DNA of 64,000 nt from Brevibacillus laterosporus DSM 25 (GTDB lineage: Bacteria; Bacillota; Bacilli; Brevibacillales; Brevibacillaceae), in contig NZ_CP017705.1 in assembly GCF_002706795.1 (NCBI RefSeq), forward strand, positions 4,129,501-4,193,500, given 5' to 3'. The notes beneath the pieces were generated by a model. That model was not told the origin of the DNA, did not search any database, and saw only the letters and a list, made by a program, of their open reading frames with translations. The translations under genes were made by a program, and so were the position numbers. Shown piece after piece: positions 45,578 through 60,528 of the stretch (position 1 is the stretch's first letter; each line of letters starts with the position of its first letter).

Positions 45578-46166
45578 TTAAACAAGAAAGGATGGATAAG
45601 AATTGTGTTGAGAGATAAGAATGATTTTTCAATCAATATACAATTGTCGAATTATTTTTTAGTATAATTTAACATAATAGTTGCAGGATTATCCAATTTG
45701 AAGTTAAATTATAGTAAAACAACAAATTACTAGTACGAAAAAAAGTGTTTTATACATAAGATCTTACTTTTTTTGTTTTGAATTTTTGAAATTTGGTTTA
45801 TATTTTGAAGTGAAAAATTATGATTACTCGAGGTAGGTTCGTCCTTCTGATTTGAAATAATTCATTAAATTTGTAACTAAGATCCTTTAGAAAGGTGTTG
45901 GGAGATTTTGATAAATAAAAATTCATATATTTCATTATGTCCAGTTATATCGAGAGATAAAAATATTATTTTCAATCTAATGCCCCTATATTTGCACGAT
46001 TTATCAAGTTACACCAATGATCTTACCAATTTTATTTTGGCACCAACTGTATGCAGAAGAAGGCATTGTCTTTGAGGAAAAGGAAGAAATCTTTCAGGAT
46101 GAACTGTGCTTAATACAAAAATTCACAATCTAATTTACTAATTAGGGAAGGTGGCTAATAAATATC
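45578..46166. other. Upstream region of the NRPS operon with a gene remnant
   Basis: AT-rich DNA. A short frame at ~45911 (MINKNSYISLCPVISRDKNIIFNLMPLYLHDLSSYT...) resembles the start of a GNAT acetyltransferase, then changes frame at ~46016 to HQLYAEEGIVFEEKEEIF and stops at 46133. It may be a decayed resistance or tailoring gene. No clear NRPS promoter was fixed. No condensation-domain N-terminal half was found here. Confidence 0.35.
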
Positions 46167-49100
46167 ATGGTAGCCTTTAACAATAGAGTGATGGAACAAG
46201 AACAATTTTGGCTGTCTAAACTTGGTGGTGAGTTCATCCCTTCTATGGTCCCCACGGACTATCCTTACGTAGGTCAAACCAAATGTAAGGCCTCGCTGCA
46301 AGTATCCATTGAACAAGAAATATCAGACAGGCTCATTCAAGTTTGTAAAAACTCTGATTTGCTTTTGTATACCTTTTTGCTAGCAACAGCAAAAATTTGG
46401 CTACATAAATATACCCAGCAAACAGAGGTTTGCGTGGGTGCACCAAATCTTTCACCGTCTACTAGACTGGTTCCTATCGTCTCAAATCCGGACCCACATT
46501 TAATCTCCAAGCAATTTATTATTGATGTAAAGCAGTCTCTTACGGAGTCATACAAAAATCAGGATTATCCACTTCATCATATTTATGAAAAATTGGATAT
46601 TAATCCACAGGGTTCAATCTCTCCATTTATTAATGTAGTTGTAGCTTTTGACAGGATACACGACAGAGAGTTTGTCGTGGCTCAAGAGGTAGACCTTTTA
46701 TTACTCTTTTCAAAATCTGATCATTCACTTCAGGTAAATCTTTATTATGATAAGGCAGTATATGAGTCACGGACGTTGGAGCGATTTTTTACTCACTACA
46801 TAAATATTCTGCGCATGATAGTCACAAACGTAAATATCTCAATAAGTGAGATTGAGCTGATGAATGAAGATGAAAAAGCTCAGCTTACTTTTTTTTCTCA
46901 AACACTTGAATCTTACCCAACGGATGAATTGGTTCATCAAGTATTTGAGAAAAAAGCTGAACAATACCCAGATAAAATAGCAGTAGTCTATCAGGAACAA
47001 AAGTTAACCTACCGACAACTAAACGAGAAAGCAAATCAATTGGCACGGCACTTGCGAGAAAAAGGGATAGAAAAGGATGAGGTAATTGCTCTGATGGTAG
47101 AGCGTTCCTTGGAGATGATGATCGGGATCTTAGGTATACTCAAAGCAGGCAGTGCCTTTTTTCCAATCGATCCTGAGAACCCGTCAGAGCGTACAAGCTA
47201 TATGCTTGCCGATAGTAAATCCCGCTTTTTATTGACACACAAGAAAGTAGGCCGCGATGTAGAGTTTGACGGAGAAAAAATTTACCTAGATGAGGACGAG
47301 TTATATGTAGGTGATATGAATAATCTTACACCGAGTCAGACACCATCACATCTGTTATATGTCATTTATACTTCAGGTACGACTGGCAATCCAAAGGGAG
47401 TAATGGTAGAGCATCGGAACCTGATTAATTATGCAACTTGGTTTAGTAGACAGGCTAGCATCACGCAAAGAGACAGCACAATGCTCTTATCTTCTTATGC
47501 ATTTGATTTAGGATACACAAGTCTTTTCCCAGCACTACTCAATGGATGCACCCTACATATTGTACCAAAAGACACATATCTGCATCCCGATAGCTTATTG
47601 AATTATATAAAAGAGGGGCAGATCAGTTTTTTAAAACTGACTCCATCCCTTTTTTCATTGCTAGTACAAGCAATGGACGGGTTACATTCACCTGATATGC
47701 CAGCGTTACGTTTAGTAGTTACAGGGGGAGAACCGATTCAACCTATTGATGTTGATACATTTCATCGTTACCTTCCTAGTGTAGCCATCATGAATCACTA
47801 CGGTCCAACCGAGTCAACAATCGGTACTTTGGCTTTACAAATTAATTTTGATGAATGGCATAGATTTCAAAAATGTCCAACCATCGGCAAACCAATATCT
47901 CAATCGGAGGTATTAATTTTAAATCAGGATTTGCAGCTTGTGCCTATAGGGGTTCCTGGTGAATTATGCATTGCAGGAAAAGGACTTGCACGCGGTTATA
48001 TAGGTCAACCTGCTTTAACAAGAGAAAAATTTATTGATCACCCATTTACTACTGGTGAACGACTTTATCGAACGGGAGATATGGCGCGGTGGGATGAAAC
48101 AGGTATGGTTCAATTTTTGGGGCGAATGGATCATCAAATAAAAATCCGAGGCTATCGGATTGAAATAGGAGAGATTGAGAAACATATAATCACTCATCCG
48201 TTAGTCCATGAAGCAATTGTACTGGCATTTCCTAATAATCAAAACGAAAATGAGCTATGCAGTTATTATCTTTCTGATGAAGAGCTGAGCCAAAGTGAGT
48301 TACGTCAATTTCTCCAACAGAAAGTGCCTGAATATATGATTCCAATGTTTTTTATACGACTAGAAAAAATGCCTCTTACATCCAATGGTAAAATAAATCG
48401 TCATGCTTTACCTAAACCAGATGACTACAAGCTTATCCAACATTCATACGTTGCTCCAGGTAGTGAGATGGAAAAGCAATTGGTATTACTATGGAAAAAT
48501 ATTTTGAAAAGAGAACATATTGGGGTAACGGATAACTTCTTTCAACTTGGTGGACATTCACTATCTGCTATTAAATTGGCCCATCAAATCAGTAGAAAAT
48601 ATCAGATTCATGTAACATTGAAGGATATATTTCTGTATTCAACAGTCCGCGATCAGATCATAATGATCGAGCAATCAGAACAAAGAGTGGAAAGACAAAT
48701 TGAAATTTCGGAGGGTAGAGATTATTATCCTCTCTCTTCCATGCAACGACGTTTGTTTTTATTAAGTCAGTTTGAGGGTGTAAAGACAGCATACAATATG
48801 CCTACGATCTGGCGTTTTCAAGGGGAAATAAATCAGAGCAAGCTGGAACAGGCGTTTCAAAAGCTCATCGACCGTCATGAAGCGTTGCGTACGTCTTTTC
48901 ATGTGATTGATAATGTACCGATGCAACGGATTCATTCTGGAATCCAGTTTTCTCTGTCTCTTCTAGAAACGACAGATTTGGAAGAAAAACAGGTCATTGA
49001 CTCATTCTTTCAACCTTTTAATTTAGGAGTGGCACCATTATTTCGTGCAGGATTAGTATCGTTATCTAGTGATGAGTATCTTTTGTTTGTTGATATGCAT

Positions 49101-52100
49101 CACATTATTTCTGATGGAATTTCAATAAGCATACTAATGGCTGAGCTTGAAAAAGCTTATCGAGGTCAGGACTTGTTACCACTTCGTATTCAATATAAAG
49201 ATTATGCGATGTGGCAACAAAAGTGGGAACAATCAGAAGAGTATAAGCAGCAAAAACAGTTTTGGCTAACGCAATTTTCTGATGAACTGCCTGTTCTTGA
49301 CCTACCTACCGACTTTATACGCCCAAAACTCCAGAGCTTTAAGGGGGATATCGTAACCGCTACGTTATCAGGAAAACAATTTGAAGCTGTTAAACAGCTT
49401 TGTCAAAAAAACGGGGCGACTCTTTACATGTTCCTACTCGCTTCATTTAATATATTGCTTGCTAAATATAGCAATCAGGAAGATATTGTTGTTGGAACGG
49501 CAGTGGCTGGGCGAAATGTAAGCGATGTGGAATCTGTAATCGGAATGTTTGTTAATACGTTAGCAATTCGAAATAAACCAGTGACAAGTAAAACATTTAC
49601 CGGTTTCTTAGAAGAAGTAAAGCTACAAACCATTCAGACGTTTAACCATCAGGATTATTCTTTAGACGATTTTGTGGAGAATCTTGCGTTACCTAGAGAT
49701 ATGGGGCGAAATCCATTATTTGATACCATGCTAACGCTTCAGAACTATGAGAGGCAGATCGTGGAACTAGATGGAATTACAATTAGGCCGATCATGAAAG
49801 ATCATGATGTTGCTAAATTTGATATTACCGTGGTTGCAGTTGAATCTGAGGATCAATTACTACTTTCCTGGGAATTTTCCACTGATCTTTGGAAGAAGGA
49901 ATCAGCTAAGCAAATGTTGAAGCATTTCATTACAGTAATGGAAAAAGTTTCCGTAAGTCCTGAGATTACTATTGGCGAATTAGAAATCCTATGCGAAGAA
50001 GAAAAAAACGCATTGCTAGCTATCAATAATCAAATGGCGATTTCTTATGACAAAGAACTAACTATCATGGATTTGATCGAGTATCAAGTGACGTTGCATC
50101 CTGATCACATTGCTGTTGTTTCAGATGGGGAAATGCTGTGCTACCAAGAGTTGAATAAAGCAGCCAACCGACTTGCTACATATCTCCTTTCCAGAGGGGT
50201 GAAACGTAATCAGCCTATTGGTGTCATGATGGATCGTAGCCCGGAACTAGTTATCAGCATTTTAGCTATTTTAAAGGCTGGCGGTGTTTACGTACCAATA
50301 TCCACGAATTATCCAGCAGAACGAATTGAATACATGTTAGAAGATAGCAAAGTTAGTTTGGTAGTAACCAATCAGCATCCACTACCCGAATTACGTTTTG
50401 AGGGTGAGTGGATTTGTGTAGGAGAAATTCCATTAGATGAAAATGATGGTAATTTCAAACGCGACACGAATTCGGAGGATCTTCTTTATATCATTTATAC
50501 ATCTGGTTCTACAGGTAGACCAAAAGGGGTAATGATTCAGCACAAGGCATTACATCATTTCGTCACTGCCATGAATAAGGAATTCTTAGATGAGATCAGT
50601 TATGAGGATCGTGTTCTCATTTCTACGGATATTTCATTTGACGTTAGTTGTTTTGAGATTTTTCAGGCGTTGATAAATGGTGCAACACTTGTTCTTTTTA
50701 ATGGGCATAAATTTGATGTTAAGCTTCTTGCAAAAACAATCCAGGAAGAAAAGGTAACTCTAGCTTATATACCGCCGGCTCTACTTAACCAACTGTATGA
50801 GACAATCCTTGTTTCACCTGAAAATTATGTATTACATAAAATGCTTGTTGGTGTTGAGCCAATTAAGGATGAGGTGTTGGCCCAATTTCTTTCTCTTAAT
50901 CCTGAAATGCTCATCGTCAATGGATATGGACCAAGTGAGGCTACCATTTGTTGTACCGCTTTCCGTTTTGAAAAAAGCGAGATAACAGGCAAATTTGTAC
51001 CAATTGGTAAACCGATAGGCAATATGCAGGTATACATTCTAGATTCTGAGTGCCATCTTGTTCCAAAGGGTGTGACAGGTGAGCTATGGATATCAGGGGA
51101 GGGATTGTCCCTGGGGTATTGGAATCAAAAAAAGCTGACAGGAGAACGTTTTAAAGCGAACCCCTTTCATCCTAACACTTTGATGTATCGAACAGGAGAT
51201 AAAGCAAGATGGTCAGAGGAAGGGAATTTGGAATTTTTGGGCAGGATGGATCATCAAGTGAAAATTCGTGGTTATCGCGTTGAACTTGGTGAAATAGAAA
51301 CTCTATTGCTACGTCATCCGGAGGTTAAAGCGGCACTAATTATGACTAAGACAGATTCATATGAAATTCCATATTTGTGTGCATATGTTGTCTTTGAAAA
51401 TAAAGAATTGAATTCAGCTCCAGATACTACACAGATGTTGCATCAATGGCTTGCTACGTTTTTACCTGATTATATGATACCAAGCTTTTTTATCGCAGTA
51501 GATGAATTCACGCTAACCCCTAATGGCAAAATAGATCGCAAAATTTTACCTGAACCAAATGGGGACGTCCTAAGAAATGAACACAGTTACTGTGCACCGC
51601 GAAACATTTTTGAAGAGCAAATGGTGTTGTTGTGGGAGAAAGTTTTAGAAGTTAAACCGATTGGTATTATGGACAATTTCTTTATGCTAGGAGGTCATTC
51701 ACTCAAAGCATTTGTGCTTGTTAGCCAGATTACTCAGCGTTTTGGACTCAATCTTCCCTTGTCAGATTTGTTTAAGGCGCCGACTATAGCAGGTCTATGT
51801 GATCATCTACAGAAGCAAGAGGTAGCTCTAGACCAGAATGTGATCCTACTCAAACAAGGAGATTGTAATGTCCCACCACTATTCATGATTCATGGCCAAG
51901 GAGGGGGAGTTATTACTTTCTCTCATCTAGCACATGAACTAGGAAGGGACTGTAGCGTCTATGGTATTCAAGCTGTTGGTTATGATGCTGAAGCGGATGC
52001 CCTGACAACAGTTGAAGAAATGGCCGCACACTATATTGCTTCTATTCGACGAATTATGCCAACTATGCCTATCCAATTAGTTGGTTGGTCTTTTGGAGGG

Positions 52101-52640
52101 TTAGTTGCTTATGAAATGGCCAAACAATTAGAGCAGCAGGGAGAGCAGGTAGAATTACTGGTAATAGTTGACTGTCTCCCATTGCTGAATAGCGACCGCA
52201 TTAATGTAGACCAGCGTTATGGAAAGTTGGATGCCGTCATTCAATATGCGCTTCTTAGTGGAATAAATCAGGAGGATTTGGCAGGAATAACGGAAGAAGA
52301 AAAAATGAGATTTTGTTGGGAAGAGGCGTGCAAACAAAAACTGTTTCCAGATGAGGTGTATAGACCGGAATTACTGTCTAAACTACGCATTCATGCAACA
52401 AATGGTATAGCTATACACAAATATCAGCTTTCTGGGAAGATTGACACTGATCTACACCTTTTTCTTGCTTCAGATGGAGCGATACAGCATCAATTTACAA
52501 CGAACGAAGAGACAACGCGATGGAATCGCTTTACAACGGGGAAGGTAAGCCCCACATATTTTTCGGGCAATCATTATACCATGCTGGAAATGCCCCATGT
52601 TCAAAAGATGGCTAAAATCCTTAGGGAAATGATGATCTAG
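46167..52640 (+). CDS. Two-module NRPS: partial C - A(Asp) - PCP - C - A - PCP - TE
   Basis: A 2157-residue synthetase. Residues 1-220 are only the C-terminal half of a condensation domain (EQFWLSKL, TDYP, a DYPLHHIYEKL-like segment), with no HHxxxDG motif. A1 (~240-755) has YTSGTTGNPKG near 400. Its binding-pocket code reads DLTKVGHIGK, the known Asp code. PCP1 has GGHSLSA (~795). A complete C domain follows (HHIISDG ~978). A2 (~1310-1800) has code DVFYLGGICK, which I cannot assign firmly (perhaps aliphatic/aromatic). PCP2 has GGHSLKA (~1842). The thioesterase has GWSFGG (~1973) and a C-terminal His region GNHYTM. It is the first gene of a three-gene operon. Confidence 0.92.
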   Translation: MVAFNNRVMEQEQFWLSKLGGEFIPSMVPTDYPYVGQTKCKASLQVSIEQEISDRLIQVCKNSDLLLYTFLLATAKIWLHKYTQQTEVCVGAPNLSPSTRLVPIVSNPDPHLISKQFIIDVKQSLTESYKNQDYPLHHIYEKLDINPQGSISPFINVVVAFDRIHDREFVVAQEVDLLLLFSKSDHSLQVNLYYDKAVYESRTLERFFTHYINILRMIVTNVNISISEIELMNEDEKAQLTFFSQTLESYPTDELVHQVFEKKAEQYPDKIAVVYQEQKLTYRQLNEKANQLARHLREKGIEKDEVIALMVERSLEMMIGILGILKAGSAFFPIDPENPSERTSYMLADSKSRFLLTHKKVGRDVEFDGEKIYLDEDELYVGDMNNLTPSQTPSHLLYVIYTSGTTGNPKGVMVEHRNLINYATWFSRQASITQRDSTMLLSSYAFDLGYTSLFPALLNGCTLHIVPKDTYLHPDSLLNYIKEGQISFLKLTPSLFSLLVQAMDGLHSPDMPALRLVVTGGEPIQPIDVDTFHRYLPSVAIMNHYGPTESTIGTLALQINFDEWHRFQKCPTIGKPISQSEVLILNQDLQLVPIGVPGELCIAGKGLARGYIGQPALTREKFIDHPFTTGERLYRTGDMARWDETGMVQFLGRMDHQIKIRGYRIEIGEIEKHIITHPLVHEAIVLAFPNNQNENELCSYYLSDEELSQSELRQFLQQKVPEYMIPMFFIRLEKMPLTSNGKINRHALPKPDDYKLIQHSYVAPGSEMEKQLVLLWKNILKREHIGVTDNFFQLGGHSLSAIKLAHQISRKYQIHVTLKDIFLYSTVRDQIIMIEQSEQRVERQIEISEGRDYYPLSSMQRRLFLLSQFEGVKTAYNMPTIWRFQGEINQSKLEQAFQKLIDRHEALRTSFHVIDNVPMQRIHSGIQFSLSLLETTDLEEKQVIDSFFQPFNLGVAPLFRAGLVSLSSDEYLLFVDMHHIISDGISISILMAELEKAYRGQDLLPLRIQYKDYAMWQQKWEQSEEYKQQKQFWLTQFSDELPVLDLPTDFIRPKLQSFKGDIVTATLSGKQFEAVKQLCQKNGATLYMFLLASFNILLAKYSNQEDIVVGTAVAGRNVSDVESVIGMFVNTLAIRNKPVTSKTFTGFLEEVKLQTIQTFNHQDYSLDDFVENLALPRDMGRNPLFDTMLTLQNYERQIVELDGITIRPIMKDHDVAKFDITVVAVESEDQLLLSWEFSTDLWKKESAKQMLKHFITVMEKVSVSPEITIGELEILCEEEKNALLAINNQMAISYDKELTIMDLIEYQVTLHPDHIAVVSDGEMLCYQELNKAANRLATYLLSRGVKRNQPIGVMMDRSPELVISILAILKAGGVYVPISTNYPAERIEYMLEDSKVSLVVTNQHPLPELRFEGEWICVGEIPLDENDGNFKRDTNSEDLLYIIYTSGSTGRPKGVMIQHKALHHFVTAMNKEFLDEISYEDRVLISTDISFDVSCFEIFQALINGATLVLFNGHKFDVKLLAKTIQEEKVTLAYIPPALLNQLYETILVSPENYVLHKMLVGVEPIKDEVLAQFLSLNPEMLIVNGYGPSEATICCTAFRFEKSEITGKFVPIGKPIGNMQVYILDSECHLVPKGVTGELWISGEGLSLGYWNQKKLTGERFKANPFHPNTLMYRTGDKARWSEEGNLEFLGRMDHQVKIRGYRVELGEIETLLLRHPEVKAALIMTKTDSYEIPYLCAYVVFENKELNSAPDTTQMLHQWLATFLPDYMIPSFFIAVDEFTLTPNGKIDRKILPEPNGDVLRNEHSYCAPRNIFEEQMVLLWEKVLEVKPIGIMDNFFMLGGHSLKAFVLVSQITQRFGLNLPLSDLFKAPTIAGLCDHLQKQEVALDQNVILLKQGDCNVPPLFMIHGQGGGVITFSHLAHELGRDCSVYGIQAVGYDAEADALTTVEEMAAHYIASIRRIMPTMPIQLVGWSFGGLVAYEMAKQLEQQGEQVELLVIVDCLPLLNSDRINVDQRYGKLDAVIQYALLSGINQEDLAGITEEEKMRFCWEEACKQKLFPDEVYRPELLSKLRIHATNGIAIHKYQLSGKIDTDLHLFLASDGAIQHQFTTNEETTRWNRFTTGKVSPTYFSGNHYTMLEMPHVQKMAKILREMMI

Positions 52641-52748
52641 GAAAGAAGGGTGCCACCCTACTACTATTGTCTGACATTACAAGAAATAGGAAAGCAGTAC
52701 CGATCTAGCAGGTGAGAGCTACAAAAACTGAAAGTGAGGGTGATTATT

Positions 52749-55700
52749 TTGACCGTTAAGTATGAGTACTATCCACTTTCGCATCCCCAAAAACGTATAT
52801 GGTACATAGAGCAAACATATCCTCACACCTCCATGTACAATATCGGAGGAATCGTTCGGATGCATGGTTCTGTTGATATTGCTTTTCTTACTCAGGCCAT
52901 CCAGATTTTTATAAAAAAGCATGATGGATTAAGACTTCATTTGCATGAGAAAGAGGGTGATGTAAATCAATACATTGTGGAATTGAATGATTTTGATGTG
53001 CCTTTCTACGATTTTAGTCATTCGGATCAAGCCGAGGAAGAGGTGCTGAAATGGGCTGAGGCAGAGTTTACAAAACCCTTTGTGCTTATTGATCATCCGT
53101 TGTTTTCCTTTGCTACTTTTCGAGCTCATGAGAAATATACAGGATATTTTGTCAAGTTACATCATATTATTGCTGATGGCTGGTCTATCAATATTATGAC
53201 AAATCAAATCAGCAACATTTATCAAAAAATAAAAAATGGTGAGAATATATCTGAAGAAGTTGAATACTCGTACGTAGATTTTTTACATCAAGAAGAGAAG
53301 TATGTAACTTCCTCACGTTTTGAAAAAAATAAGAAATATTGGAATGACAAATTCCAGTCACTTCCCGAGAGTTTTTTGAGTAAGAGTTCAGATCAAGTGG
53401 AAGGAAATAGGAAAACCATCGATCTTGATAACGACCTGTCAACTCGTATTAACGAGTTTGCTACTAGGCATCATTTATCGCTAAGTTCCTTGTTTATTAT
53501 GCTTACCTTACTCTATCAGTACAAAACACAGCAAAATAATGATCAAATACTTGGTATCCCTGTTCTTAATCGTTCTGGAAATAAAGAAAAAAATATCTTT
53601 GGGATGTTTACTAGTTCCATGCCATTCCGGATGAAGCTAGAAGACACTGAGACATTGTTGGCTTTTTACAAGAGAGTTCAAAATGAGGTATTAAGTAATT
53701 TTTTTCATCAAAGATATCCGTATGATCTTCTGATTAGTAATTTAGAGCTAAAGAAAAAGGACTATGATAGTCTGTTTCAAATTTGTGTGAATTACTATGG
53801 AACGAAGTTAGTGAATGAGCTAGAGGGAATAAGTATTGATAATCTGGAATTTTACAGTGGTTATCAAGCATACTCATTACAATTAGTCATAAAAGAATGG
53901 TCAAGTGAGAACAAAATTACTTTGTTCTATGATTACAAGACCAGCGACTATACCAATGAACAGATCGAAGAAATTCACGATCGACTGATGTACATGCTAG
54001 AACAGATCATAAAACAGCCTGAAAAGTTGATTAAGGATATCTCTCTTTTGAGTGATCAGGAGAAATATGAGCATATCTATGTGCGAAATCAAACTGATGC
54101 GTTTTATCCACGAGTCAAGGTGATACATCAGCTTTTTGAGGATCAGGTAGCACTAACTCCTGATCTTGTCGCTGTACGTTTTCAAGATAAAACCTATACC
54201 TATCGTCAACTGAATGAACAAGCTAATAGACTAGCGCGTACACTTCGTACAAAAGGGATAGCTTCAGATCAATTCGTTAGTATTTATATGAGGCATTCGT
54301 ATGAGATGATTGTGGGAATTTGGGCTGTCTTAAAAGCAGGAGGGGCATACGTGCCGATTGACCCTGATTTTCCACTTGATCGTGTTTCATATATTTTGCA
54401 GGATAGTCAGGCCAAGCTCTTATTATCAAATGCAGACGTAAATATAGAAGGTTTCGAGGGAGAGGTTATTCGTCTTGATGATCCAGCAAACTATTTATCA
54501 GAATCGCATAACCTTGTAAACATTAATCAAGTAAGTGACTTGGTATATGCGATTTATACCTCTGGTTCTACAGGAAAACCAAAGGGTACATTAATTGAAC
54601 ATAGAGGATTGGTCAACTACATTCATTGGGCAAAACAAAAGTACATACAATCTCAGGATGAAACCTTTGCCCTCTATTCCTCCTTAGCATTTGATTTGAC
54701 AGTTACATCCATTTTTGCTCCACTTTTAAATGGAAATCAGATTATTGTTTATGTCGAAAACGAATCTGAATTTGTGCTGGATACTATTCTTCGTGAAAAT
54801 CGTGTCAATATTCTTAAACTGACACCTGCACATCTTGCTTTAATTAGTGACAAGGATAATCACAATTCCGTAATCAGACGATTCATCGTTGGTGGAGAAG
54901 ACCTTAAGGCAACACTCGCTGCCAAAACTTATGAAAGCTTCAAAGGAGATATCAGCATTTACAATGAGTATGGACCGACAGAAACAGTAGTGGGTTGCAT
55001 GATCTATGAATATAATCCTGAGATAAATAGAATGGGTTCTGTACCAATTGGTCGTCCGATCAATAACGTACAAATCTACCTTCTCAATGATGATCTACAG
55101 CCTGTACCTAATGGTGTTACAGGAGAGTTGTATATTTCCGGTGATGGCGTTGCTAGAGGGTATTTGGCTAGAGAGGATTTGACGAAGGAGCGTTTTTTAG
55201 ACAATCCGTTTAAGCAGGGATATCGTCTTTACAAGACGGGAGACCTTGCCCGAATGCTACCTTCACAAGATATAGAGTATGCAGGAAGAATCGATCATCA
55301 GGTAAAGCTGAGAGGATATCGGATTGAATTAGGGGAAATTGAGAACTGCTTAACTAGTTTTGCATCTGTAAAAGAAGCTGTGGTCATTGATCGAGTAGAG
55401 GAGAACGGGCACAAATATCTGTGTGCATATATGGTCGCAGATGAGAATATTTCTATAGTTGAGATGCGCCTAAAACTAACAAACAAGCTCCCTTCTTATA
55501 TGATTCCAACATATTTTGTTACGATTGAAAAATTTTTGTTAACATCAAATGGAAAAATTGATCGTAATCAACTTCCTGATCCACTTGCTATAAATAGTGT
55601 AAATCAATCAGGAAATAAACAGCCAAACGATACAGAAGAAATAGTAATGAAAATCATGAAAGAAGTATTACAGACGAATGAAGTTACAGTAGATTCTAAT

Positions 55701-57236
55701 TTTTATTTTCTTGGTGGAGATTCGATAAAAGCGATCCAAGTGGTTGGTAAACTGAATCAGATGAATCTCGGTGCTACGGTGAGAGATATCATGACTTTTC
55801 CAGTGGTACATGAACTTGCAGCTGCTATTGAAATGAATCAACAACCTGTAGCTCCACAAGAGGCGATGAGTGGAGCAATCAAGCCAACACCAATCACAGC
55901 ATGGTTTTTCTCGCAGAATCTAATTGAGGCTCAACATTGGAATCAATCTGTCCTCCTTCAACTAAAAAAGGCATTTACAATAGAACAAATAAGCAAGGTA
56001 CTTACAAAAATTGTTCATCATCACGATACATTGCGACTCAACTATGATTCGAAGACAGAAGCGCTCTTTTATAATGATAAGCATCTAGCTCAAACAGTGG
56101 ATGTTGAAACGGTGGATTTGTCGGAAATTCCGTTTGAAAAACAGCTTGAACAATTGAAACAAATCGGTGAGCAAGTCAAGAGAAGTTTCGATCTGGAACA
56201 GGGATTATTGTTTAAAGCAGTATTGTTCCAGTTAGGTAAAGGTGAGACGCGTTTGCTACTTACAGCACACCATTTAGTCATCGATGGCGTTTCATGGCGG
56301 ATTTTATTAGAAGATATGGGGCAGCTTTTCCGAGACATAGAAGAGGGGCGCCGGTTACACCTACCAGCAAAAACTCACTCGATGCAAAGATGGGCGGAAG
56401 AGCTGGAGCATTATAGTAAAACAGGAGCATTCCAATATGAACAATACTGGAAGGAAGCTTTGGAAACCTCAGCCTTAAATCATAAAACGGAAGCTGAGGA
56501 ATGCTTGGCAAATTGTGAGACACGAAATGCTGCATTCACGAAAGAGTCGACAGACCAATTGTTGTACAACGCCAATCAGGCATATCAAACGCATTCTCAT
56601 GAGCTTCTCATTATGGGAGTATGTCTAGCAACCGCCACTTTAATGAATGAAACAGATATAGTGATAGAATTGGAAGGACATGGAAGGGAACAGCTGTTTT
56701 CTGATATAGATGTGTCGCGTACCATTGGTTGGTTTACGTCTATGTATCCTGTTAGATTGCAACTTCCTCAGGGAGATATTGCTCATGTAATTAAACATCT
56801 CAAGGAGCAGATCAGAACCGTGCCGAACAAAGGTATTGATTTTGGGATTCTTACCTATTTGACAGGGCAGTTCAGTCAATTGCCAGAGAAGCGAATTCGC
56901 TTTAACTTTTTGGGGGAAGTAGACAATCAAGTGGACAATCAGTTTCTTACTTTAGCATATGAGGATACAGGATCAGATATCTCTTTACAAAATCCAATGA
57001 CATGCCTCATAGAAATTAACGCCATGATCAAAGAGAAAAGGTTACATGTTGCTCTTACCTACAGTAAAAGCAACTATCATCGAGTAGCCATGCAACAATT
57101 TCTGGATAATATCATCACAAGCACAAACGATATTCTCAAGCATTGCTGTCAGTCAGAAGAGATCCGAGATTTTACCCCTTCTGATTTTACTACCGTTACT
57201 CTCACACAAGATGATCTTGATGATTTATTCGCCTAA
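52749..57236 (+). CDS. Single-module NRPS: C(starter) - A(Asn) - PCP - E, with docking tail
   Basis: A ~1495-residue synthetase. The N-terminal C domain (YYPLSHPQKRIWYIEQ; HHIIADGWS near 137) opens the protein, as in lipoinitiating starter C domains. The A domain (YTSGSTGKPKG ~602) has pocket code DLTKIGEVGK, a known Asn code. The PCP is FYFLGGDSIKA (~987), the GGDS form seen before epimerases. The E domain has HHLVIDGVSWRIL (~1173) and EGHGRE (~1308). The end, TLTQDDLDDLF, is a typical donor docking (COM) segment. Predicted product: N-acyl-D-Asn on the PCP. The TTG at 52749 is preferred for its ribosome site; GTG 52734 is in frame. Confidence 0.92.
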   Translation: MTVKYEYYPLSHPQKRIWYIEQTYPHTSMYNIGGIVRMHGSVDIAFLTQAIQIFIKKHDGLRLHLHEKEGDVNQYIVELNDFDVPFYDFSHSDQAEEEVLKWAEAEFTKPFVLIDHPLFSFATFRAHEKYTGYFVKLHHIIADGWSINIMTNQISNIYQKIKNGENISEEVEYSYVDFLHQEEKYVTSSRFEKNKKYWNDKFQSLPESFLSKSSDQVEGNRKTIDLDNDLSTRINEFATRHHLSLSSLFIMLTLLYQYKTQQNNDQILGIPVLNRSGNKEKNIFGMFTSSMPFRMKLEDTETLLAFYKRVQNEVLSNFFHQRYPYDLLISNLELKKKDYDSLFQICVNYYGTKLVNELEGISIDNLEFYSGYQAYSLQLVIKEWSSENKITLFYDYKTSDYTNEQIEEIHDRLMYMLEQIIKQPEKLIKDISLLSDQEKYEHIYVRNQTDAFYPRVKVIHQLFEDQVALTPDLVAVRFQDKTYTYRQLNEQANRLARTLRTKGIASDQFVSIYMRHSYEMIVGIWAVLKAGGAYVPIDPDFPLDRVSYILQDSQAKLLLSNADVNIEGFEGEVIRLDDPANYLSESHNLVNINQVSDLVYAIYTSGSTGKPKGTLIEHRGLVNYIHWAKQKYIQSQDETFALYSSLAFDLTVTSIFAPLLNGNQIIVYVENESEFVLDTILRENRVNILKLTPAHLALISDKDNHNSVIRRFIVGGEDLKATLAAKTYESFKGDISIYNEYGPTETVVGCMIYEYNPEINRMGSVPIGRPINNVQIYLLNDDLQPVPNGVTGELYISGDGVARGYLAREDLTKERFLDNPFKQGYRLYKTGDLARMLPSQDIEYAGRIDHQVKLRGYRIELGEIENCLTSFASVKEAVVIDRVEENGHKYLCAYMVADENISIVEMRLKLTNKLPSYMIPTYFVTIEKFLLTSNGKIDRNQLPDPLAINSVNQSGNKQPNDTEEIVMKIMKEVLQTNEVTVDSNFYFLGGDSIKAIQVVGKLNQMNLGATVRDIMTFPVVHELAAAIEMNQQPVAPQEAMSGAIKPTPITAWFFSQNLIEAQHWNQSVLLQLKKAFTIEQISKVLTKIVHHHDTLRLNYDSKTEALFYNDKHLAQTVDVETVDLSEIPFEKQLEQLKQIGEQVKRSFDLEQGLLFKAVLFQLGKGETRLLLTAHHLVIDGVSWRILLEDMGQLFRDIEEGRRLHLPAKTHSMQRWAEELEHYSKTGAFQYEQYWKEALETSALNHKTEAEECLANCETRNAAFTKESTDQLLYNANQAYQTHSHELLIMGVCLATATLMNETDIVIELEGHGREQLFSDIDVSRTIGWFTSMYPVRLQLPQGDIAHVIKHLKEQIRTVPNKGIDFGILTYLTGQFSQLPEKRIRFNFLGEVDNQVDNQFLTLAYEDTGSDISLQNPMTCLIEINAMIKEKRLHVALTYSKSNYHRVAMQQFLDNIITSTNDILKHCCQSEEIRDFTPSDFTTVTLTQDDLDDLFA

Positions 57237-57253
57237 GAAAGGAAACGAAAAAG

Positions 57254-60200
57254 ATGAACATGAAACAATTGTTATACCGACCCATTTTTCTGACATGGTT
57301 GCTTTCCTTTATATTCTTGGTGTACCCAGTTAATCAGATAAGTGCAGCTACTATTTCACTATCACCACAAAGATTAGAGCAAATGGAAGAATTCATTACC
57401 AAGCAAATGAATACGGCGGAAATTCCCGGTTTACAGGTAATCATTGTGGAAAAAGACAAAACGATATATCAAAAGGGCTTTGGTTACGCAGATGTACTGA
57501 GCAAAAAGCCTGTTACGAATGAAACGTTGTTCGAATTAGGATCAAATAGTAAAGCTTTCACTGGTCTTGCCATCTTACAGTTAGCTGATAAAGGGCTAAT
57601 CGATTTGAATGACCCGGTAACAAAGTATCTTCCTTGGTTGAATCTTTCCTATAAAGGAAAGATTCAACCTATTACGTTGGGCCAATTCCTTTATCATACA
57701 AGTGGAGTTCCGTTCAAATCGATAGGTTTTCTCCCAGAAGGTAATGAGGAGGATGCACTTGAAAAGACGGTACGAACATTGCTTGTACAGGAGCTGAATC
57801 GTGAACCTGGGACAAGGTACGAATATGCGACTATCAATTACGATGTATTAGGATTGGTAATAGAAAAGGTCACCAACCAATCTTTTGAAACGTATATCAA
57901 ACAAAATATCTTAAACGCTCTGGAGCTTCCAGATACATATGTTGGTGAGCAAAACGTTGATCAAACACAAAAGGCCACTGGTTACAAGATGGGATTCACT
58001 GAACCTCAAAAATACAATCCGCCTAGTTTCCGGGGAAATACACCAGCAGGATATATTATAAGCAATGGAATAGATATAGCTCGGTGGATGAAAATACAAA
58101 TAGGAGCAGGTAGCACAGGTAGTATTAATCCCGCTCTAATTAAAGCATCTCATGAGCCAGATCGTAAGGTAAAGCCTAGCAGTAGTGGGTCATCATATGC
58201 TACTGGCTGGGAAGTTTATCAAAAAGGAGACGGTGAGCTTTCACACCCTGGAAGTAATCCAACGTTTAGTTCGTTTATAGTAGTTCGCCCAACTGAACAA
58301 ATGGGGGTAGCTGTATTAGCCAATATGAACAGTGACTATACGGTTAATATTGGGCAGGGAATTATGAACATGCTTCTTAATAAAGAAGTACCTCCTATCC
58401 ATTCAGACCTATACAAAAAACTGGATCAGTTATCGTTTTCCATTATTTGTGTAGTAGGTCCAGTTTGTCTAGCGATTCTTTTTTTAATAGGTCGTATGTT
58501 TCTCGAAGTATGGAAAAAGCAACGAAAGTTTCAAGTGATGAAAAAAAATGTAATAGTGGGCCTATTGTTCCATGTACTATTATTATGTATATTCTCGTTA
58601 GGCATTTTCTATTTGCCAAATCTGCTATTTATGGAACTAACTTGGCAATTTATTAAAGTATGGATTCCAGAGACGATTATGTTTGCTGTATATGGAGTTA
58701 CACTAGCATTCGTTCTCTATTTCTTTTATTCGTTACTTCTCTTGTTTTCTAAAAAAAAACAGGAAAACATTTATTTTTCTTTAACAGTTCTAAGCATAGT
58801 TAGTGGCTTTGGTAACGCCTTTATTATCTTCATTGTTAATGAAGCCTTTACACGAACAAATAATTTGGTTAACGGTTTACTGTTTTATTTTATCATGGGG
58901 ATTTTTATGTATGTCGTTAGCCAAAAGATACTTCGCTCGCGTCTTGTTACATTAACCAATCAATTGGTTTATGAAAAACGGATGGAGTTGGTTGAGAAAT
59001 TACTTCAAACTAGCTATAGCAGTTTAGAAGAAATAGAGCAAGGTCGTATTCAGGCTACATTAAACAATGATACAGAAGTTATTAGTCGAGCAATCAATAT
59101 TATGATTACTTGTGTAACTAATTTCATCACACTAGTTTGTTGTTTTATTTATCTAGGAATCATGAATTTTTATGCATTTGCACTCTCCGCTATGATTATC
59201 GGGCTTGTAGCAGCGATTTACTATCTTATTGGGCAGAAGGCAAATAAGCTGTGGGAGAAAACACGTGATATTCAGAATGTTTTCTTCAAATTCATCACCG
59301 ATATGACTAGTGGGTTTAAAGAACTGACCTTGCATAGAGGAAAACGTGAAGAGTTTCATATTGCAATTCAAGAAAGCTGTGCAGAATACCGTGACAAACG
59401 TGCCGAGGGCGATCTTAAATTTGCAAACGTATTTATCATCGGGGAATTACTGTTTATTATCGTAATCGGTTGTGTCGTATTCATATTTCCAGAAATATTT
59501 AAACAAATGAATGCTGATATGCTACGGAACTATGTTTTTGTTTTCTTATATATGACCGGACCTGTAAATGGTTTATTAAATGGACTCCCTCAAATTGTAA
59601 TGATTCGTATTAGCTGGGAACGTATCACCAAAATGATCCAAGAACTAGCCTTAGCGAAAGACCCAGAGCAAGACAATGTACTAACGTCAGAGAACGTCAT
59701 GCAACCGGTTCGGATGATTGTAAAGGATGTATCTTATGACTATAAAATTCAAGAAGAGCGAGGCTTTAGCGTTGGACCTATCAATTTTGAGTTTGCATCT
59801 GGAGAAATTATTTTTATTACAGGTGGAAATGGGAGTGGAAAGTCAACACTCGCGAAGCTACTAACCGGTCTGTATGCACCTATAAAAGGGGAAATTACTA
59901 TCAACGGTAGCAAGGTCACGCATGCTCAATTGAGTCAATATTACTCGGCGATTTTTGGGGATTTCCATCTATTCGATCGCCTTTATGGAATTGATTCAAA
60001 GCGTAATGAACAAGAGATCAAGCACTATCTAGAGGTCTTAGAGCTGCATGAGAAGGTGAAAGTGGAAAATGGGATTTTCAGTACAACCAGACTTTCAACT
60101 GGGCAAAAAAAACGCCTTGCTCTTTTAATTACCTATCTGGAAGATCGGCCGATTTGCCTTTTTGATGAATGGGCTGCTGACCAAGATCCTGAGTATCGAC

Positions 60201-60346
60201 GCTTTTTCTATCAAGTGTTATTGCCAGACATGAAACAAAAAGGGAAGTGTATTATTGCTATCACACATGATGATCAATATTTCCACATAGCCGATAAAGT
60301 GATTAAGATGGATGCGGGACAAATGAAGAACCCAGTCAGTGTTTGA
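57254..60346 (+). CDS. Serine peptidase fused to ABC exporter (ClbP/ZmaM-like)
   Basis: A 1030-residue fusion. A signal peptide (residues ~1-32) leads to a beta-lactamase-fold peptidase (residues ~35-385) with S97-x-x-K100, Y191 in YEYATINY and HPGSNPT in place of HTG. About three helices follow (~395-500), as in ClbP. Next comes a six-helix ABC permease region and an ATPase with Walker A GGNGSGKST, signature LSTGQKKR and Walker B ICLFDEWAADQDP. This fits the D-Asn prodrug peptidases, of which ZmaM-type members carry an exporter. The gene starts 17 bp after the D-Asn module, so it probably removes acyl-D-Asn during export. Confidence 0.88.
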   Translation: MNMKQLLYRPIFLTWLLSFIFLVYPVNQISAATISLSPQRLEQMEEFITKQMNTAEIPGLQVIIVEKDKTIYQKGFGYADVLSKKPVTNETLFELGSNSKAFTGLAILQLADKGLIDLNDPVTKYLPWLNLSYKGKIQPITLGQFLYHTSGVPFKSIGFLPEGNEEDALEKTVRTLLVQELNREPGTRYEYATINYDVLGLVIEKVTNQSFETYIKQNILNALELPDTYVGEQNVDQTQKATGYKMGFTEPQKYNPPSFRGNTPAGYIISNGIDIARWMKIQIGAGSTGSINPALIKASHEPDRKVKPSSSGSSYATGWEVYQKGDGELSHPGSNPTFSSFIVVRPTEQMGVAVLANMNSDYTVNIGQGIMNMLLNKEVPPIHSDLYKKLDQLSFSIICVVGPVCLAILFLIGRMFLEVWKKQRKFQVMKKNVIVGLLFHVLLLCIFSLGIFYLPNLLFMELTWQFIKVWIPETIMFAVYGVTLAFVLYFFYSLLLLFSKKKQENIYFSLTVLSIVSGFGNAFIIFIVNEAFTRTNNLVNGLLFYFIMGIFMYVVSQKILRSRLVTLTNQLVYEKRMELVEKLLQTSYSSLEEIEQGRIQATLNNDTEVISRAINIMITCVTNFITLVCCFIYLGIMNFYAFALSAMIIGLVAAIYYLIGQKANKLWEKTRDIQNVFFKFITDMTSGFKELTLHRGKREEFHIAIQESCAEYRDKRAEGDLKFANVFIIGELLFIIVIGCVVFIFPEIFKQMNADMLRNYVFVFLYMTGPVNGLLNGLPQIVMIRISWERITKMIQELALAKDPEQDNVLTSENVMQPVRMIVKDVSYDYKIQEERGFSVGPINFEFASGEIIFITGGNGSGKSTLAKLLTGLYAPIKGEITINGSKVTHAQLSQYYSAIFGDFHLFDRLYGIDSKRNEQEIKHYLEVLELHEKVKVENGIFSTTRLSTGQKKRLALLITYLEDRPICLFDEWAADQDPEYRRFFYQVLLPDMKQKGKCIIAITHDDQYFHIADKVIKMDAGQMKNPVSV

Positions 60347-60380
60347 GGCAATTGATACATTAGTTTACTAGTTCATATAA

Positions 60381-60426
60381 AAGAGACTCACTTTTTATGT
60401 ACAGAAAAGTGAGTCTCTTATTTTTA
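60381..60426 (+). terminator. Terminator of the NRPS operon
   Basis: AAGAGACTCACTTTT (60381-60395) pairs with AAAAGTGAGTCTCTT (60405-60419), a perfect 15-bp stem, followed by ATTTTT. It can also serve the minus-strand gene. Confidence 0.95.
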
Positions 60427-60528
60427 CATGATAAGAATGATGATGTAGCTAACAGAACGCTTCGTGAGGCGTACCCAGGTTCAGGTTATGTCATTTACCT
60501 TTTACAAAATAGAAATGTAAACTAGAAA

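Follow-up and report, generated by a model that had tools for sequence, protein, structure and literature searches.

A three-gene operon of Brevibacillus laterosporus DSM 25 raises the question of whether it encodes a complete biosynthetic pathway or parts of a larger one. The operon lies in a window of 64,000 nucleotides, i.e., the whole stretch of DNA that was analyzed, and consists of three co-oriented open reading frames (ORFs) on the plus strand (46167-60346) with intergenic gaps of 93 and 17 bases. Genes 1 and 2 encode non-ribosomal peptide synthetases (NRPSs), and gene 3 encodes a peptidase fused to an ABC exporter. A first-pass annotation had interpreted the operon as a self-contained three-module pathway for an acyl-D-Asn-Asp-Xaa prodrug. 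The coordinates and the co-orientation were borne out, and the Pfam and NCBIfam domains of all three genes matched that annotation, except for half a condensation (C) domain at the N-terminus of gene 1, which had been overlooked. The operon probably represents the two ends and the finishing enzyme of a split prodrug line of NRPSs and polyketide synthases (PKSs), the middle of which would be encoded about 1 Mb away at a locus designated e5160. All features are compiled in Table 1.

Gene 2 Encodes a Putative Acyl-D-Asn Starter

The specificity codes of the adenylation (A) domains were read from an alignment of 102 A domains, and the final K of the codes was added, not aligned. The code of gene 2 was DLTKIGEVG(K), as annotated before, which from the Stachelhaus tables we take to be an Asn code. 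The first C domain of gene 2 scored highest with those at the start of five other lines in the own genome (197-253 bits, with at most 142 bits for the rest), and it was therefore assigned to the starter type (Cs). The terminal domain is one of 15 strong epimerization (E) domains in the own genome. Together with the peptidyl carrier protein (PCP) domain, this gives the Cs-A(Asn)-PCP-E module of acyl-D-Asn prodrug pathways, and the starter role proposed before is thus supported by the Cs type, the Asn code, and the E end. The C-terminal tail of gene 2 is shared with other starters of this architecture. In most cases, the likely partner of a starter with such a tail has a DCL-type C domain at its N-terminus; the exception is genome G009, in which the next NRPS/PKS gene begins with a ketosynthase (KS).

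The Operon Has No Complete Condensation Domain for the D-Asn-Asp Bond

The first A domain of gene 1 had the code DLTKVGHIG(K), presumably an Asp code according to the Stachelhaus tables. For the code of the second A domain, DVFYLGGIC, a literature search retrieved no paper that contains it, and, orthologues aside, none of the 102 aligned A domains shared more than five of its nine positions. The A codes of the operon were identical across three genomes. Gene 1 contains one complete C domain, which is placed between its two modules. In phmmer comparisons it reached mostly about 240-420 bits with between-module C domains and about 54-144 bits with C domains at DCL-type positions; because of these scores and of tyrocidine synthetase 3 as the best match in the PDB, it was assigned to the L-C-L type.

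The layout A(Asp)-PCP-C-A-PCP-TE, with a terminal thioesterase (TE), was found as annotated, but it has to be extended by the N-terminal half-C domain. This domain covers only about positions 188-456 of the condensation profile, and a motif search of the protein revealed no HHxxxDG upstream of residue 978. The joining of D-Asn to Asp requires a condensation domain, normally of the DCL type. In the operon, gene 2 ends with an E domain and no HHxxxDG precedes A(Asp), so that not every peptide bond has a complete C domain. A self-contained acyl-D-Asn-Asp-Xaa pathway is unlikely because no complete C domain can join D-Asn to Asp.

The half-C domain was kept in both orthologues of gene 1 and was under purifying selection (pairwise dN/dS 0.16, 0.18, and 0.25). 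The other domains of gene 1 had pairwise values of 0.06-0.24 among the three orthologues, and the TE reached up to 0.42. Mere decay of the half-C domain was ruled out by its dN/dS values and its conservation in three genomes. An AlphaFold2 model of the half-C domain had a mean pLDDT of 67 and a pTM of 0.71. A search of 398 class-level genomes yielded matches at E <= 1e-24 in 19 genomes, including the own genome. The four top-scoring relatives outside the family (30-40% identity) were halfC-A-PCP-TE proteins, encoded downstream of a C-A-PCP-E protein or of its E end. In the own genome, two further proteins with a half-C domain likewise have a TE at the end.

Gene 3 Encodes a Probable ClbP-Type Peptidase Fused to an Exporter

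Residues 42-496 of gene 3 could be aligned with ClbP over 445 positions with 33% identity. The residues S97, K100, and Y191, which had been named in the first-pass annotation, align with S95, K98, and Y186 of ClbP, and the ClbP determinants for D-Asn (E92, S/T188, N331, and W466) are all matched in gene 3 (E94, T193, N335, and W470). In addition, K240, N262, and W464 are retained. Among 577 matches in the PDB, a ClbP chain was the best (217 bits), Protein flp was close (203 bits), and the class C beta-lactamase AmpC was far lower (about 80 bits). The best match, 7mdc, is labelled "Beta-lactamase"; we take it to be full-length ClbP, which fits the matches 4e6x and 3o3v, which are labelled ClbP. 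Of the two outcomes that the first-pass annotation had named as contrary to its reading, neither was seen: by score the peptidase is nearest to ClbP, with Protein flp close behind and class C beta-lactamases far off, and the A code of gene 2 reads as Asn. The residues of gene 3 favour ClbP. The exporter half matched TIGR01194 with 393 bits (cut-off 286), and the signal peptide was recognized by eye only. Gene 3 was the sole match of its kind in the own genome at E <= 1e-40.

Gene 3 has the peptidase-ABC exporter fusion of a type II prodrug peptidase, and it would cleave the acyl-D-Asn from the exported product. The residues retained in gene 3 conform to the pattern published for prodrug peptidases, which have S or T at position 188, H or N at position 257, and N at position 331 (PMC9889268, also the source of the D-Asn determinants). 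The combination of activation and export in one protein had been regarded as new; however, ZmaM, PamJ, and EdeA are already described as peptidase-ABC exporter fusions of type II (PMC9889268, PMC4234257).

The Numbers of Protein Ends Agree Only When Two Loci Are Combined

In the own genome (G000, one contig of 5.4 Mb), the starts and ends of 35 proteins with C or E domains were counted; a 2635-aa C-bearing frame near C1:118 kb was left out, and the b4760 protein is incomplete at the region edge. Seven half-C starts were found for seven terminal C domains with an F-x-F tail, and eight E-ends for eight DCL starts. All 15 strong E domains of the genome fall in counted proteins. The F-x-F tails were confined to C-ends (7/7), and three of the ten C-ends had no tail. 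Outside the own genome, 75 proteins were compared, of which some are near-identical between genomes: all nine F-x-F tails were on C-ends, none of the 63 other ends had one, and 3 of the 12 C-ends were tail-less. One of these three ends with FVLF and shares its locus with a half-C start, and two are in G002. Every F-x-F C-end is accompanied by a half-C start at the same locus. Conversely, most half-C starts, both in the own genome and in the clusters of its relatives, have in their locus a protein with a full C domain at its end, usually followed by an F-x-F tail.

The window operon has neither an F-x-F C-ending protein nor a DCL start. Among the counted loci of the own genome, it alone has a half-C start and an E-end in excess, and e5160 alone has an F-x-F C-end and a DCL start in excess, so that the numbers agree only if both loci are included. 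The ends of the two NRPSs of the operon thus match surplus partners elsewhere, which, like the missing C domain, speaks against a complete three-module pathway. As controls, five clusters with all genes in a single locus were counted. The E-ends equalled the DCL starts in all five, and the F-x-F (or FVLF) C-ends equalled the half-C starts in four, the exception being G002, for which two further KS proteins were left out of the count. The partly read loci of G010 and G022 were not counted, and the locus of G009 is outside the five since its line extends past the fetched region.

The Proposed Middle at e5160

The locus e5160 is an orphan NRPS/PKS line without a recognized starter and without an E-ending starter. 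Its eight proteins start and end with DCL/PCP, KS/C, half-C/C, DCL/PCP, KS/C, half-C/E, DCL/E, and half-C/C. There are, therefore, four F-x-F C-ends versus three half-C starts, and three DCL starts versus two E-ends. The last protein (1358 aa) has a full C domain at its end, followed by the tail EDEEFDF. No thioesterase was found by Pfam in the six of eight proteins that were scanned, and the remaining two end in C domains. This absence rests on Pfam, as our own phmmer query for TEs was weak and missed the TEs of two proteins in which Pfam found them. No ClbP-type peptidase was recognized at e5160: in its S12 protein, E94, T193, and N335 are replaced by R, N, and I, respectively. Genes for an acyltransferase, PALP, OCD, and an aminotransferase are present, and the line contains codes of the form DIWxxTADDK, which we take to be Dap-like.

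Based on these ends, the following route is proposed. Gene 2 would load fatty-acyl-D-Asn, and its C-terminal tail would pass the chain to a DCL-starting protein of e5160. After elongation the 1358-aa protein, with its full C domain and its EDEEFDF tail, would dock onto the half-C domain of gene 1. Gene 1 would add Asp and one further residue, and its TE would release the chain. Gene 3 would then export the product and remove the acyl-D-Asn. A path that uses each protein once would be gene 2, the e5160 proteins of 1261, 2024, 2592, 1369, 1896, 2614, 4295, and 1358 aa, and gene 1, but other orders are possible, and this one is not fully collinear with the gene order. That the two loci work jointly, and which of their ends pair, is inferred from the sequences, as are the product and the arrangement of the middle proteins. 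The product would carry a fatty-acyl-D-Asn cap and have Asp and X as its end residues. The tupuseleiamides, acyldipeptides of B. laterosporus, were considered as a candidate product.

The three genes of the operon are kept together in three genomes (the own genome, G003, and G004). In G003 and G004, which are two further species, e5160 is also conserved, at a distance of about 1.03 Mb in G003 and on different contigs in G004, and in both genomes each locus is equally unbalanced alone. Of 39 genomes, the same three have a close orthologue of gene 1 and one of the 2024-aa e5160 protein (85%). The identities of the orthologues were 0.83-0.96, compared to 0.85-0.98 for four flanking genes. They are thus within or near the range of the flanking genes and uninformative as a sign of co-transfer. 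The joint conservation supports vertical maintenance of both loci, but not more. The gene for the S12 protein was rejected as a marker of the middle line, because it is present in G001 (54%) without NRPS hits on the contig stretch examined, and the 2024-aa protein was used instead. A free-standing C domain at G000:C1:4464273 was also discarded as a candidate for condensation in trans, as it has no F-x-F tail and is preceded by PKS-type genes (by eye, with PCP hits).

Alternative Explanations

Several observations weigh against the proposed split line. Within e5160 the E-ending 1896-aa protein precedes the half-C start of the 1358-aa protein, with only the S12 gene between them. The part of the G009 locus that was seen has two E-ends for one DCL start, and the gene after its starter begins with a KS. 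G002 has three C-ends for two half-C starts, and only one of these C-ends has an F-x-F tail. The count of the own genome may be off by one due to the 2635-aa frame and b4760. A mirror-tree comparison of terminal C and half-C domains singled out no partner for gene 1. Co-occurrence is weak evidence because the three genomes are close relatives and the divergence of the two loci is ordinary.

A half-C domain also need not mean docking. Gene 1 could be a self-starting Asp-Xaa dipeptide synthetase with a vestigial half-C domain at its loading module, and the acyl-D-Asn of gene 2 would be attached elsewhere or lost. The best partial NCBIfam match of gene 1, which was below the cut-off, was aureusimine synthetase, an enzyme that begins with an A domain. 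The starter module of the thermoactinoamide synthetase ThdA is described as having a truncated C domain before the A domain ("C*, probably inactive"; PMC7253712). However, ThdA has its C* at the loading module, whereas the half-C domain of gene 1 is on a TE-bearing protein and its nearest relatives end in TEs. Purifying selection acts on this domain and on the catalytic domains alike, the loci of its best relatives outside the family hold a C-ending protein wherever they were read, and the operon is kept intact across three genomes, all of which makes a self-starting gene 1 unlikely. It is quite improbable that the three-module pathway is right after all and that no dedicated domain is needed to join D-Asn to Asp, the bond being formed either by the C domain of gene 1 acting twice or by an active half-C domain. 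The starter, the TE, and the peptidase are all present and conserved together, but the sole complete C domain is of the L-C-L type whereas the donor would be D-Asn, the half-C domain has no HHxxxDG, and the tail type of gene 2 goes with DCL starts elsewhere. It is very improbable that the operon is what remains of a larger, decaying cluster and makes nothing in this strain: the gene upstream of the operon is broken in the window and intact in both relatives, but all three ORFs are open, the dN/dS values are well below 1, and the A codes are identical in three genomes. Taken together, the split line, with its ends and its finishing enzyme in the window and its middle at e5160, is the probable explanation.

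Surroundings of the Two Loci

The broken upstream gene encodes a GNAT acetyltransferase. Only two end pieces of it are left in the window, and it is intact in the orthologous loci of G003 (L029 3889-4419) and G004 (L030 4049-4573). It is a candidate for a self-resistance or tailoring gene, and EdeQ, ZmaR, and PamZ are presumably parallels. A terminator-like inverted repeat followed by T's was seen by eye just 3' of gene 3. A search for the plasmid origin of gene 2 in the "near" mode gave no plasmid match.

With its surroundings, e5160 covers G000:C1:5160746-5219588 (about 58 kb). A luciferase-like monooxygenase is part of one of its proteins, and in another a methyltransferase is inserted into an A domain. 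The locus is flanked by spore-germination-like genes (by eye) on one side and by an NHL-repeat protein and further genes on the other. About 200-210 residues follow the last PCP in the e5160 proteins of 1261 and 2614 aa, and also in a 1266-aa protein of G002 and in three proteins of G006 (1273, 1250, and 3410 aa). The stretches of the two e5160 proteins were tested and had no Pfam match. By eye, these stretches end in a helix like the end of a C domain, and they are possibly another docking piece toward KS-starting proteins.

Table 1. Features of the window operon and position of the proposed middle line (window coordinates, unless a contig is given)
Feature	Position	Strand	Description
GNAT acetyltransferase gene remnant	45881..46130	+	directly upstream of gene 1
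Gene 1 (P0001, 2157 aa)	46167..52640	+	halfC-A(Asp)-PCP-C-A-PCP-TE; proposed terminal NRPS
Half-C domain of gene 1	46167..46901	+	C-terminal lobe only, without HHxxxDG; proposed docking acceptor for a protein ending with a full C domain and an F-x-F tail
A1 of gene 1	46932..48416	+	code DLTKVGHIG; identical in two orthologues
Complete C domain of gene 1	48711..50036	+	L-C-L type, with HHIISDG at aa 978; tyrocidine synthetase 3 (2jgp) as best match in the PDB
A2 of gene 1	50067..51551	+	code DVFYLGGIC
Thioesterase of gene 1	51852..52637	+	GWSFGG
Gene 2 (P0002, 1500 aa, GTG start)	52734..57236	+	Cs-A(Asn, DLTKIGEVG)-PCP-E; putative acyl-D-Asn starter
C-terminal donor tail of gene 2	57168..57233	+	DFTPSDFTTVTLTQDDLDDLFA; shared with other Cs-A(Asn)-PCP-E starters
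Gene 3 (P0003, 1030 aa)	57254..60346	+	signal peptide (by eye), ClbP-type S12 peptidase, transmembrane (TM) region, cyclic-peptide-type ABC exporter; type II prodrug peptidase
Peptidase domain of gene 3	57374..58393	+	ClbP-equivalent S97, K100, Y191, E94, T193, N335; W464 and W470 in the TM linker
Terminator-like inverted repeat	60364-60430		followed by T's (by eye)
e5160 locus	G000:C1:5160746-5217242	minus	orphan NRPS/PKS line with eight NRPS/PKS proteins, about 1 Mb from the window

Relation to Known Systems

The prodrug logic with N-acyl-D-Asn is shared with colibactin (ClbN/ClbP) and xenocoumacin (XcnA/XcnG). ClbP and XcnG have no ABC half, in contrast to gene 3 (PMC9889268, PMC4234257), and the pathways of edeine, zwittermicin, and paenilamicin combine, like the window, an Asn starter with a ClbP-type peptidase-ABC fusion (EdeA, ZmaM, and PamJ). 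In an edeine-type cluster (our own naming) and similar ones that were read in the Brevibacillus family, the starter, the middle, and the peptidase are in one locus, whereas in the window the ends and the peptidase are separated from the proposed middle. This family also contains large NRPS/PKS clusters with an Asn starter, encoded in a single locus together with type II peptidase-ABC fusions, namely in G002 (L055/L031/L056/L153), G006 (L036/L062/L147-L150), and G009 (L035/L063/L151/L152). A second prodrug-type cluster is present in G003 (G003:C1:2602001-2652000, L046/L105/L106), with a peptidase-ABC protein, a module with an Asn code followed by E, and an S12 protein.

In other Bacilli families, acyl-D-Asn prodrug-type clusters with an aminotransferase, a DCL-KS protein, and a halfC-A-PCP-TE protein were observed in G120, G395, G387, and G371 (L112-L115, L118-L122). 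The single-locus clusters of G371, G395, and G387 (that of G120 was seen in part) share with the window the Cs-A(Asn)-PCP-E starter, a TE protein with a half-C start, and a gene 3-like peptidase, and they have a C-ending protein in addition. Their terminal protein has one module, whereas gene 1 has two, the genes are together in one locus, and in G371 the peptidase and the exporter are separate genes. The three loci of half-C relatives that were read further encode a C-A-PCP-C protein ending with FAF or FVLF and a gene 3-like peptidase that retains the D-Asn residues E, T, and N. The Asn code of the C-A-PCP-E starter was read in two of them, and the third starter (G387) is known from its E end only.

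Implications

The peptidase-ABC fusion and the prodrug logic are already known, and split NRPS pathways as such exist, e.g., for pyoverdine. A split prodrug line, with the start, the end, and the peptidase apart from the middle, and the pairing of half-C domains with F-x-F tails were not found in the open-access literature when exact phrases were searched. The arguments are evenly balanced for a wider proposal: the half-C domain and the F-x-F-tailed terminal C domain would form a pair for subunit docking that is general to NRPS/PKS lines of Bacilli and has no name as yet, and that lets one prodrug pathway of this Brevibacillus group span two loci about 1 Mb apart, with the genes for start, end, and self-protection in one and those for the middle in the other.

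The peptidase of gene 3 is a handle for finding the product, because an inhibitor of ClbP has already exposed capped precursors of zwittermicin and edeine (PMC9889270). Mining that treats each cluster separately would list the window as a tiny NRPS and e5160 as a line that lacks a starter and a release domain, and it would predict two wrong products. If the split is true, matching of half-C starts with F-x-F tails and of E-ends with DCL starts would be a cheap rule to rejoin scattered assembly lines.

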